IMG/VR virus record: IMGVR_UViG_3300025832_000058
Span: 1-25,795 of that record
Direction: 5' to 3' (one strand)
Length of the DNA stretch: 25,795 nucleotides
From: a virus
The notes beneath the pieces were generated by a model. The model was not told the origin of the DNA. It did not search any database and saw nothing but the letters and a program-made list of their open reading frames with translations. Position 1 is the first letter of the stretch. Every line of letters starts with the position of its first letter. Position numbers and translations under genes: made by a program. Positions 3,603 to 7,150 of this stretch are shown here, in pieces.

Positions 3603-4768
3603 GTTTCCACCTTTATTTTTACTCTAGAGTCTTCACCGTTTTCTTTATGGTATACAACAGCCGTCATAGAACGCTCCGCACCGTATCCTGAATCTGAGTG
3701 CCATTGATCCGTAGCAGTAAGGCTACCCCAATGCTCAAAATGCATAGAGCCTACCTCTCTGGCCGTGTGATGATGTATATGACCTAGGTGACAGTATCTA
3801 TTCTTAGACTGGCTCCATTCGTCATCGAGATTCTTAATAACTGCCTGCAATATCTGTTCGTGCTTCATGCGATCACCGTGATGGAAGACAAACAGATTAT
3901 TGTGCCACTGGTAGTGAATAAACTTTGAGTAGTTTGGTAGGACGTTAACGCGGGTTTCATTGCTATACAAAAGCTCAAGACAGCTAGATAGGTGGCAAGC
4001 CATATCAGAATCATGATTGCCCCTAACATTAATAACTACTACCTCACCATGAACCTCAAGCATCTTATCTATCAACACCTGAAACAATCTACCAGCCAAT
4101 TTGAAGGTCTTGCCTATGCGAGTATCGACATCGACCGGCGTTCCTTTGGTGGTGGTATTGGCGCTGCTGTCGGCATGAAAAAAGTCGCCAACATTGAGCA
4201 GTACGCCAGTGTGAGCATCCCCAACCCTGTTAGCCAATCTGTCAGTAGCATCAATCAATATCTGAGTTGCTATCTTTACGTCCCAGTCATCGTCATCAAT
4301 CTTAGTTTCTGAGTCAGCTAACATTCCAAAATGGTGATCGCCAATCATGTACATGGCTAGGTAATCGTCATCAAGTGTTGCGGGTTGATCAACAGGCAAC
4401 TTAAAGCCAGTAAGGTCATCAGTCATCCCTTCCATCAAAGCATCAATCTTTTGCTTCATATTGCGCTTTTGAGGCTCTTGAATAACCCATTGCAAGGCTA
4501 TTGATCCGTCTTCTTTGTAAGCCGTAGACACCCGCTTGGCATCAAAGCCTTCCATCGTTTCCCTGTCTACGCTCTTATGAGGGGCTACACCCTTCGATGC
4601 TGCTGCCCTTTCTATACGCAGCATGATTCTATCTACGTTCCTTCGATCAATGCCAAGATCATAAGCTGCTTTTATATTTGATCCGTTTTTAATTACTGCA
4701 TTGCAAACTTCTTTTTGCCTTTCAGATTGTGCGAACTCCAATAAAACACTAGGGTCAATCTTGGCCAT
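3599..4768 (-). CDS. Calcineurin-like metallophosphoesterase with N-terminal HTH
   Basis: A 389-residue protein. Residues about 1-65 look like a helix-turn-helix (NIKAAYDLGIDRRNVDRIML), a layout resembling the DNA-binding end of small terminases or regulators. The metallophosphoesterase core follows, with GDHH (143-146), NVGDFFHAD (192-200), RGNHD (249-253), HHGD (296-299) and GHIHHH (329-334), which are the metal-binding motifs of the calcineurin/Mre11-type fold. Related phage proteins are annotated as phosphoesterases or DNA-repair nucleases; the substrate is unknown. ATG 4768 has AGGAGA upstream and follows the NinB stop by 1 nt; an upstream in-frame extension to 4813 lies inside NinB and is not needed. 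All metal ligands appear present, so it should be active. Confidence 0.85.
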   Translation of the reverse strand: MAKIDPSVLLEFAQSERQKEVCNAVIKNGSNIKAAYDLGIDRRNVDRIMLRIERAAASKGVAPHKSVDRETMEGFDAKRVSTAYKEDGSIALQWVIQEPQKRNMKQKIDALMEGMTDDLTGFKLPVDQPATLDDDYLAMYMIGDHHFGMLADSETKIDDDDWDVKIATQILIDATDRLANRVGDAHTGVLLNVGDFFHADSSANTTTKGTPVDVDTRIGKTFKLAGRLFQVLIDKMLEVHGEVVVINVRGNHDSDMACHLSSCLELLYSNETRVNVLPNYSKFIHYQWHNNLFVFHHGDRMKHEQILQAVIKNLDDEWSQSKNRYCHLGHIHHHTAREVGSMHFEHWGSLTATDQWHSDSGYGAERSMTAVVYHKENGEDSRVKIKVET

Positions 4769-5228: not shown

Positions 5229-5569
5229 ATTAATACCCTCAACCATTTATCAGATAATCTCATACTGGAGGTTTCCAGCTTGTCAGACCCTCTAGTTCTC
5301 ATCATGTAATCAGACGGTTTCTTCTGGGCATCACCAACTCTGTACAAGTCTCGATCAGTAAAGAATGGCTTACCGTACAACCTGCCCTTAATTGTTGCTT
5401 TGCTGACGTTAACTGCCTCTTGCAGTTGCTTATAAGTGTAATAGTTACCGTATTCCAGTTTAGTATTATGGCATCCACAAACTGGGTTTATGCAGTTGTG
5501 ACATTCAGGATGCTTTTTATACTGAATCAATCTTGGTTTATTAGATGCTGGCACGAAATTCTCCATCAT
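5225..5569 (-). CDS. Cys-cluster plus HTH protein of unknown function (114 aa)
   Basis: Residues 23-34 form a compact Cys/His cluster (CHNCINPVCGCH) that could bind zinc. Residues about 44-75 (YYTYKQLQEAVNVSKATIKG) look like a helix-turn-helix of the kind used for DNA recognition. The C-terminus is basic. It starts inside the end of the replication-type gene: ATG 5569 gives a 29-nt overlap, and a GTG at 5554 with GGAG 6 nt upstream is an equally good start. Its stop overlaps the NinB start (ATGA), which supports expression. It may be an early DNA-binding regulator or replication partner; no family is recognised with certainty. Confidence 0.6.
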   Translation of the reverse strand: MMENFVPASNKPRLIQYKKHPECHNCINPVCGCHNTKLEYGNYYTYKQLQEAVNVSKATIKGRLYGKPFFTDRDLYRVGDAQKKPSDYMMRTRGSDKLETSSMRLSDKWLRVLI

Positions 5570-5930
5570 AGTAATAGCCGCGCAAATTTAGGTAATACTG
5601 CTTCATCTGCATTAGCTGTTCAGGGTCAGTAATCCAAGTCACATCAGTCAATTGCATATCTAATGTCTTGGCCCGTAGACTATCTGGGTCTTTGTATTTT
5701 TTGTAGCTAGAAGGGCTACCAGAAGATCCGCCCTGCTCTTGAGCGCGACCTAACCAACTGTTGCAGAACTTCATAACTCCAGAAGGCGTTTTCCTTTTTG
5801 CTGGGTTAGCCTCACACCAAGTAGCCATCTTCTTTAGTTCCTGCTCAACATCTACCTTTTCGTAAGCGCCCTTCCACTCTTCAATGGCCTCCTCGCTAGG
5901 ATTCCAGTCTTTACCTGACTTTAACTTCAT
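5541..5930 (-). CDS. Replication-module protein resembling the C-terminal part of phage replication initiators
   Basis: A 129-residue protein. The segment NPSEEAIEEWKGAYEKVDVE, then LKKMATWCEANPAKRKTPSG and FCNSWLGRAQEQGG, follows a pattern (D-V-x-x-x-L...W...ANPA-x-RK...F...WL-x-R) frequent in the C-terminal region of phage replication proteins of the O/DnaT type. The N-terminal DNA-binding domain of such proteins is absent, so this is either a stand-alone short version or a remnant left after loss of the upstream half, with the HNH gene now in its place. ATG 5930 has GGAG 8 nt upstream and overlaps the HNH stop (ATGA). It overlaps the next gene by 29 nt. Confidence 0.55.
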   Translation of the reverse strand: MKLKSGKDWNPSEEAIEEWKGAYEKVDVEQELKKMATWCEANPAKRKTPSGVMKFCNSWLGRAQEQGGSSGSPSSYKKYKDPDSLRAKTLDMQLTDVTWITDPEQLMQMKQYYLNLRGYYYDGEFRASI

Positions 5931-6427
5931 AATATAACTCCATGATTGCAAAATTGACCGTGAAGAGATTCTCTCTTTTTCCTTACAGCTTTAACAGCTT
6001 CATTAAGATCATCAAACATTCCAATGTGAATTTCCTCGCCTCTCATCTTTAATCTGGCTCTCCATTTTTTGCTTGCACTGTGCCAGCCAACACCTTTAAA
6101 ACCTGAATTGTTAGACTTTGATAGCATAGCATTCCAGCAATTTTCCTCAACGCTGCATGCCCTTAGATTCTCAATTCTGTTATCTAACGGGTCGTTGTTA
6201 ATATGATCAATTACTTCAGGCAAAAACCCGTTATGGATAAAAAATATAACCCTATGGTCTAGATAGGTTTTCTTGTTAAGCGTTAAAACACGGTAACCCC
6301 TATTCCCTAGATGACCAGCCCTTTCTCCTACTCTGCCCTTTCCCTTATTAACTTTATGAAAGAACTTACCGTTTCCGTCATACTCGTAAACAGAAACAAC
6401 ATTCTTGTAGTCTTTAATTTTTAGCAT
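5927..6427 (-). CDS. HNH endonuclease with AP2 DNA-binding domain (homing-type)
   Basis: A 166-residue protein. An N-terminal beta-rich part leads into the HNH motif LDHRVIFFIHNGFLP...VIDHINNDP...NRIENLR (His58, Asp74, His75, Asn78, Asn83, Asn87). Residues about 108-157 form an AP2-like domain (SGFKGVGWHSASKKWRARL...HIGMFDDLNEAVKAV). This is the standard architecture of phage HNH homing endonucleases, which nick or cut intron- or gene-free alleles to spread. ATG 6427 has AAGGGGA upstream; an in-frame extension to TTG 6502 runs into a hairpin and is unlikely. The stop overlaps the following ATG (ATGA), so the gene is fitted neatly into the leftward operon. It lies directly downstream (leftward sense) of the structured interval 6515-6850. 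Confidence 0.85.
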   Translation of the reverse strand: MLKIKDYKNVVSVYEYDGNGKFFHKVNKGKGRVGERAGHLGNRGYRVLTLNKKTYLDHRVIFFIHNGFLPEVIDHINNDPLDNRIENLRACSVEENCWNAMLSKSNNSGFKGVGWHSASKKWRARLKMRGEEIHIGMFDDLNEAVKAVRKKRESLHGQFCNHGVIL

Positions 6428-6472
6428 ATCTTTTCCCCTTGGTTCGGCAAGCCTCACCCTGTTAACAAAAAA

Positions 6473-6500
6473 GGTTTTAGTCTGTATGTCTTCTAAAACC
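6473..6500 (-). terminator. Weak leftward terminator-like hairpin before the HNH gene
   Basis: Perfect 8-bp inverted repeat (6473-6480 with 6493-6500) with a 12-nt loop. Leftward it is followed by six T (6467-6472). The stem is AT-rich, so termination would be partial. It could act as an attenuator in front of the endonuclease gene. Confidence 0.4.
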
Positions 6501-6514
6501 AACTTTATTCAAAA

Positions 6515-6850
6515 CGATTTAACCCTTTTACTTGCAAAAGTAAATTTACGATCTAAGGGCCAAAGCAACTTAGCGGTTAAACAAATGTCTGTATCGGATA
6601 TCCAACCTATCCTTCAAGAACAACCGAGTTCTATCAGGGGCTATGTACTGGAGGGTCAACCACGCTCTGACGTTTATCTAAGGAGTTCGTCAGCCTCTAG
6701 CCCAAACATTTGTTTGCAATAAAGAAAGGTGGATATTAGGTATCAGTAGGAAACCACTGATATACTTGCCTTTCTTCCTCTTCGCACGAGAAGTATAAAC
6801 CTCCTCAAGGTTTAAAGTAAAGCCCCCGTAACAGGGGGTTTTTTTATTAC
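6515..6850 (+). ncRNA. Candidate structured RNA ending in an intrinsic terminator
   Basis: No credible ORF, but dense well-nested pairing. Element 1: 6518-6524/6575-6581 closes two hairpins, 6527-6533/6538-6544 (7 bp, GCAA tetraloop on +) and 6553-6557/6569-6573. Element 2: 6579-6588/6706-6715 (10 bp, perfect) closes 6596-6600/6608-6612, 6617-6621/6628-6632, and a composite stem 6638-6643/6698-6703, 6651-6654/6694-6697, 6667-6672/6688-6693 whose 3' strands are contiguous. Element 3: 6722-6729/6769-6776 (8 bp) closes 6741-6747/6756-6762. Then 6796-6802/6808-6814 (7 bp), and finally a C5/G5 terminator with seven T on +. The T-run and the GNRA loop favour a + strand RNA, antisense to the operon. 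No clear promoter was found. Elements 1 and 2 share three bases, so they may be alternatives. Confidence 0.5.
6823..6845 (+). terminator. Rightward intrinsic terminator
   Basis: CCCCC (6823-6827), 6-nt loop, GGGGG (6834-6838), then seven T. Read leftward it follows the HTH gene stop, but the leftward T-run is broken (CTTTACTTT), so the strong direction is rightward. Confidence 0.75.
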
Positions 6851-7062
6851 TTTTCTCTAGTCTCCAATTTAATAAATTCACTAGGCTCAATCTGGAATAT
6901 CTCGCACAGTCTTAACATGGTGTGATACTTCATGTCAGGCATGATTCGCAGTCTAGAAGCGACCTGCGGCGATGTCATGAGCTTTTCAGCCAGTCTAGCG
7001 GTGTTTAGGTCATACTTAACTTGAGCTATCTTGAGGCACTTGCCTAGATTTGGTTTTGTCAT
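6847..7062 (-). CDS. Small HTH regulator, Cro/CI-like (71 aa)
   Basis: A 71-residue protein that is essentially one XRE-type helix-turn-helix domain: TARLAEKLMTSPQVASRLRI is the HTH, followed by KYHTMLRLCEIFQIEPSEFI, the usual closing helices. It has no dimerisation or autocleavage domain, so it is closer to Cro or a small repressor than to full CI. ATG 7062 has AGGAT 8 nt upstream; the longer frame to 7113 lacks a site. It sits between the recombination genes and the HNH gene, bracketed by two rightward-facing terminators. The palindromes at 12058-12074 and 2616-2628 are possible targets, but nothing in the sequence links them. Confidence 0.75.
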   Translation of the reverse strand: MTKPNLGKCLKIAQVKYDLNTARLAEKLMTSPQVASRLRIMPDMKYHTMLRLCEIFQIEPSEFIKLETREK

Positions 7063-7124
7063 ATTACTATCCTGTGGTAATCTAATTAAGCAAGGTATTC
7101 CCCTGCTTTGCACTCTCCTAGTTT

Positions 7125-7150
7125 CCCCCCTCGAAAGGGGGGGGTTTTTT
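7125..7150 (+). terminator. Rightward intrinsic terminator between SSB-like and HTH genes
   Basis: C6 (7125-7130), TCGAAA loop, G8 (7137-7144), then six T on the + strand. On the leftward strand the 3' flank is GAAAC, so it would not terminate the leftward operon. An adjacent hairpin lies at 7088-7092/7104-7108. Confidence 0.7.

Follow-up and report, generated by a model that had tools for sequence, protein, structure and literature searches.

The left arm of the 25.8-kb IMG/VR virus record analysed here (the whole of which is called the window below) consists of genes transcribed leftward, with one interval of about 420 bp in which no gene is convincing. Read in the direction of transcription, this interval follows the genes for an Erf-like annealing protein, a YqaJ-type exonuclease, a small protein of unknown family and a small HTH protein, and it precedes those for an HNH endonuclease, a 136-aa protein weakly resembling replication initiators, NinB, and an exonuclease (Table 1). 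An earlier note on this DNA had proposed a large nested RNA structure at 6515-6850, built from inverted repeats, without a credible ORF and antisense to the operon. The inverted repeats are present as described, and covariation among homologues indicates that a large nested structured RNA is real; the 3' part of the element (6520-6441) and the promoter (6821-6792) had been overlooked.

Homologues of the element occur on about a hundred or more viral contigs, as judged from two motif scans that returned 62 and then at least 119 contigs, a minority of the second set being chance matches; two candidates from a scan of genome contigs (L095 and L096) lacked the rest of the element and were likewise taken as chance. 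Six close relatives show no substitution at all across 6535-6960, with the HNH gene diverged in one of them, and in distant relatives, most of whose proteins share 38-82% identity, the element persists at about 73% DNA identity and this HNH gene is absent. DNA searches of INPHARED gave no match or short chance-like matches only, and the protein searches returned no isolate above 60% identity. Divergent members were found with a covariance model (R1): of 80 loci retrieved through the replication-like gene only, 73 match it (70 in full length, three cut by the contig start), and the remaining seven contigs start downstream of the RNA, which is therefore present at every one of these loci that extends far enough upstream. 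No empty site, i.e., a locus without the RNA, was seen among the members examined. All 90 distinct loci show the same location and orientation; 76 of them have the HTH gene on the upstream side and 71 the replication-like gene on the downstream side, and truncation at contig ends is the probable reason for at least some of the loci without these neighbours. Among the genes that follow the RNA, the constant one is the replication-like gene, two homologues of which resemble replication-initiation proteins with E values of 0.0003 and 0.0013. At one locus (L235, positions 3794-4002) a very different core lies between flanks that are near-identical to those of L090 and L044, which suggests that recombination exchanges RNA cores as a whole.

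Folding energies lend the structure moderate stability only, with z values relative to shuffled sequences of -2.7 (plus strand) and -3.3 (minus strand) for the 336 nt, and of -2.0 and -2.8, respectively, for the core alone. Since neither strand is clearly favoured by folding single sequences, energy alone could not settle the structure or the strand, which is achieved by the homologues. In an alignment of 64 distinct main-type cores after de-duplication (A2), the structure read on the minus strand comprises 51 pairs in nine helices, with 94.4% of the cells paired, compared with 33-43% when the structures are slid by one to three columns. Two-sided changes affect 30 pairs and 425 cells, against 128 (sd 16) in shuffled alignments, a contrast partly due to the structure being derived on the same sequences. 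Another 12 members, fitted to the model and not rows of its own alignment, were aligned separately and show 92.3% paired cells and 99 two-sided cells against 34. The comparative evidence, which the earlier note had suggested as a check, is strong. A further 20 distinct cores carry extra hairpins in P2. The 10-bp closing helix noted previously (6579-6588/6706-6715) corresponds to P1, which is longer on the minus strand (13 bp with one U-G pair), and the contiguous strands at 6688-6703, formerly taken as 3' strands, are there the 5' arms of P2a, P2, and P1. The stem at 6722-6776 belongs to the 5' domain of the window's subgroup, which is missing from short-type members, and the GCAA hairpin at 6527-6544 is P6. 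A coding explanation was rejected, in agreement with the lack of a credible ORF: 394 of 455 gaps in the 64 homologues are 1 nt long, and an open plus frame crosses the core in only seven of the 64.

Table 1. Features of the RNA element and its neighbourhood in the window, in the order of leftward transcription.
Feature	Position	Strand	Remarks
Small Cro/C1-type HTH gene	6847-7062	minus	E 0.00027, just under the Pfam cut-off; directly upstream of the RNA
G+C hairpin with T7	6819-6842	plus	between HTH gene and minus-strand promoter
Putative sigma-70 promoter	6792-6821	minus	-35 TTTACT (6821-6816), 18-bp spacer, -10 TATACT (6797-6792)
Palindrome TAAACC-N7-GGTTTA	6796-6814	none	across promoter spacer; 19 distinct spacers
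5' domain of the window's subgroup	6716-6786	minus	conserved start TGCGA; bulged stem closed by 6777-6769 / 6732-6724
Core multibranch domain	6579-6715	minus	closed by P1; holds P2, P2a, P2b, P3, P4
P1	6715-6703 / 6591-6579	minus	compensatory changes
P2	6702-6699 / 6642-6639	minus	
P2a	6693-6688 / 6672-6667	minus	compensatory changes
P2b	6663-6660 / 6651-6648	minus	compensatory changes
P3	6638-6628 / 6621-6611	minus	compensatory changes
P3 hexaloop UCGGUU	6622-6627	minus	5' strand of pseudoknot; invariant in A2
P4	6610-6606 / 6597-6593	minus	compensatory changes
AACCG after P1	6574-6578	minus	3' strand of pseudoknot; invariant in A2
Hairpin P5	6553-6573	minus	CUAAG/CUUAG; in relatives CAAAG/CUUUG, CUGAG/CUCAG, CGAAG/CUUCG
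Hairpin P6 and conserved GGGUU	6521-6544	minus	UUUACUU-UUGC-AAGUAAA; arms UUUACGG/CCGUAAA in other members
A+T-rich spacer	6459-6520	minus	
Window-lineage stem, then six T	within 6459-6495	minus	GGUUUUAG/CUAAAACC
3' hairpin P8	6441-6458	minus	GGU-GAGGCUUGCCGA-ACC; directly before Shine-Dalgarno sequence
HNH endonuclease gene	5927-6427	minus	first gene of the transcript in the window phage; ATG at 6427, 16 nt past P8
Gene for replication-initiation-like protein	5541-5951	minus	136 aa; E 0.008

The strand follows from the wobble pairs: reading A2 on the minus strand gives 113 G-U and 10 A-C cells, and reading it on the plus strand swaps these counts, so that the functional RNA is the minus strand; consensus folding agrees (-72 for the minus against -61 for the plus strand). 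As judged from these comparisons, the RNA is in the sense of the leftward operon. The earlier note had instead envisaged a plus-strand antisense RNA ending at the C5/G5 hairpin with seven T at 6819-6842. Such an RNA would be positioned like the oop RNA of phage lambda, a 77-nt antisense RNA encoded between a cII/cro-like HTH gene and a replication gene. The element indeed lies between an HTH gene and a replication-like gene, but differs from oop in its sense orientation and its much larger size. The hairpin exists and is a good plus-strand terminator, and many relatives contain a TATAAA-like box on its 5' side. However, it lies upstream of the RNA's own promoter, and many members with the core lack both the hairpin and the 5' domain, while the promoter on the minus strand is conserved and the RNA continues into the ribosome-binding site downstream. 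Together with the pair counts, this makes the antisense proposal scarcely credible.

Beyond the nested helices, the core contains a pseudoknot between the loop of P3 and a strand downstream of P1. Because both strands are invariant in A2, covariation is not to be seen there, and it is supplied by the divergent members found with R1. The pairing CGGUU/AACCG of the window is replaced by two compensated variants, namely CGGUA/UACCG, found as UCGGUA with UACCG in six members (L229, L247, L278, L280, L262, and L258), and UGACU/AGUCA in L235, L231, L240, L219, L267, and their relatives. Comparison of these sequences therefore demonstrates the pseudoknot.

Sequence comparison also supports a dedicated minus-strand promoter directly 5' of the RNA, with transcription predicted to start near 6785. 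Matches to the promoter consensus are no commoner in this region than in shuffled sequences, and the significance of this one derives from its recurrence at the same place in diverse relatives, with a spacing of 17-18 bp; in short-type relatives, transcription would be expected to begin on the 5' arm of P1. Members of the window's subgroup carry in the promoter spacer a palindrome whose arms vary between lineages in a mostly symmetric manner around a centre of 7 nt in most of them, and which is regarded as a putative operator; the adjacent HTH protein may be the one that binds it, and its gene is a candidate for the regulator of the RNA promoter. Symmetric change between lineages is also what would be expected for operators of diverging repressors. 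The hairpin at 6819-6842 is found only in the subgroup with the 5' domain, is compensated in L042 (CCCCC/GGGGG to CCCTCC/GGAGGG), and was also scored in a terminator-like form on the minus strand (6837-6823). Another strong palindrome, terminator-like on the plus strand, lies at 7122-7144, between the HTH gene and the next gene upstream.

At its 3' side the element passes through a spacer, which averages 82% A+T among the members as compared with 58% for the window, into hairpin P8. Most relatives contain P8 in the form GGC-GAGGCUUGCCGA-GCC, and its stem is compensated (GGC/GCC, GGU/ACC, GAC/GUC, UUC/GAA); the hairpin may contain tandem G-A pairs and a CUUG tetraloop. It does not represent a dispersed repeat, as at most one copy occurs per fetched sequence, and contigs that contain the 16-mer of P8 without a core mostly represent chance occurrences in other surroundings or are truncated. 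The distance from P8 to the start codon is 15-17 nt in nearly all of the 88 distinct first genes, whose products fall into 18 sequence groups; leaving aside one group that stems from a chance contig and counting the two with HNH-type proteins once, they represent at least 16 unrelated families, few of which are recognized by Pfam (HNH_3, winged HTH_39, and C5 DNA methylase). The site after P8 (6441-6427 in the window) looks like a swap site for the first gene, apparently exchanged between related phages. A terminator-like stem is present in only five of 96 spacers, the most convincing one being that of the window lineage, where the stem and the following six T form a possible attenuator or terminator that may attenuate the HNH endonuclease gene.

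With a little better than even confidence, we regard the element as a cis-acting structured leader RNA that sets the expression of the operon containing the replication-initiator-like gene. Strand, fold, pseudoknot, and fixed position of the leader are established by comparison of the homologous sequences, and its promoter, the operator and its co-transcription with the operon are supported by sequence only: the RNA has a putative promoter of its own upstream and a co-directional gene directly downstream, and no conserved terminator separates them, the window lineage being counted among the five exceptions. Transcription would start at the sigma-70 promoter just downstream of the small HTH gene, and the RNA would fold while it is made into the P1 multibranch with P2, P3, and P4 as well as P5 and P6, with the loop pseudoknot locking the domain. 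It would then run on through the A+T-rich spacer and end with P8 abutting the first ribosome-binding site, and P8 would shape translation of the first gene, whichever this may be. Given that the same leader serves at least 16 unrelated first genes, action of the core on the whole transcript, through the elongating polymerase or mRNA stability, is more likely than action on one particular protein. The molecular action (on polymerase, on translation, in origin priming, or in trans), the bound partner, and the biochemical effect are inferred. In the downstream operon, only two intrinsic terminator-like sites were scored for the minus strand (near 1460 and 940), which means that a need for antitermination is not evident, and the stem with T6 in the window lineage could release the element as a short independent RNA.

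The latter feature, a terminator-like site after P6, would also suit a trans-acting RNA, which after processing or termination would bind a host or phage protein, for example to serve as a decoy, to inhibit a defence or to form part of a ribonucleoprotein; the downstream genes would then do no more than share its promoter. The compact fold with its pseudoknot, the extended, conserved segments without pairing (GGUUGACCCUCC, UCGGUU), the variability of the downstream genes and the exchange of whole cores between near-identical flanks, which could indicate a trans-acting specificity function, are consistent with such an RNA, but the lack of a conserved terminator, the fixed distance of P8 from the start codon, and the invariable locus and orientation render it unlikely. 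Even less probable is a role as pre-primer or R-loop activator at a replication origin, by analogy to ColE1 RNA II or the R-loop origins of T4, with the spacer as the unwinding site. Its position before the replication-initiator-like gene, the A+T content of the spacer, an invariant single-copy G+C hairpin after the spacer, and its universal presence in the clade would fit; however, A+T-rich leaders are common for other reasons as well, and the GC skew keeps its sign at the RNA, the cumulative skew being lowest at about 8.5-11.5 kb, near divergent transcription. Of the likeness to a ColE1-type primer RNA, only the position and the A+T-rich spacer are compatible. HNH endonucleases often accompany group I introns, and the pseudoknotted core might suggest a self-processing RNA, i.e., a ribozyme or an intron remnant linked to the HNH gene. 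This is very improbable, as Rfam yielded no intron or ribozyme match even at lenient E values, no member shows an empty site, and HNH genes are just one of many alternatives in the first position, which also led us to reject an association of the group I intron type.

The element is best read as a new class of structured phage leader RNA, of a kind that is known in general. In line with the earlier note, which recognized no known class, Rfam 15 gave no match at gathering score for the window and seven relatives, the families tested including riboswitches, group I and II introns, HEARO, ROOL, and GOLLD; lenient scans of the window, L136, and L235 gave no credible match, and a limited search of the open-access literature found no description of the RNA. 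A metabolite riboswitch was rejected, there being no Rfam aptamer, and the first genes coming from at least 16 unrelated families instead of one pathway. The put RNA of phage HK022 binds RNA polymerase and suppresses termination. It is a leader RNA of a phage early operon, located downstream of the promoter and acting independently of the following gene (PMC9378689). The element is likewise promoter-proximal in a phage early operon, with the promoter at its 5' edge, and action on the whole transcript would be analogous to that of put; however, put is about 70 nt long, with two stem-loops, and occurs in two copies, while the element has a core of about 200 nt in a single copy, with a multibranch and a pseudoknot, and these differences in size and architecture keep us from classing it with put. 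T4 gp43-type translational operators are short conserved hairpins beside the ribosome-binding site, as is P8, which differs by preceding many unrelated genes and by being one part of a longer leader. ROOL and GOLLD RNAs often occur near tRNA genes, unlike the element, as the window contains no tRNA gene. They are large pseudoknotted phage RNAs of unknown function (PMC12286853), from which the element further differs by its smaller size and its fixed place at the head of one operon. A bolder interpretation, possible but rather doubtful, sees a single-copy pseudoknotted RNA device without close known counterpart, universal in one uncultured phage clade, that would directly target RNA polymerase or the machinery of replication; it would have become the constant front part of a site where gene cassettes are exchanged, and would drive any gene inserted behind P8.

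Start, fold, pseudoknot and 3' end of the RNA are defined; it is found in every examined member of the clade and heads an operon with a freely exchanged first gene, making it a directly testable case of RNA control of phage gene expression or replication. To our knowledge, few large RNAs of phages are backed by solid covariation, and the function of most of them is unknown; the A2 alignment and the R1 model can seed a new RNA family. Elsewhere in the window, the region 2110-2601 encodes a protein with degenerate tandem repeats of RTDVLGTTR-like motifs.
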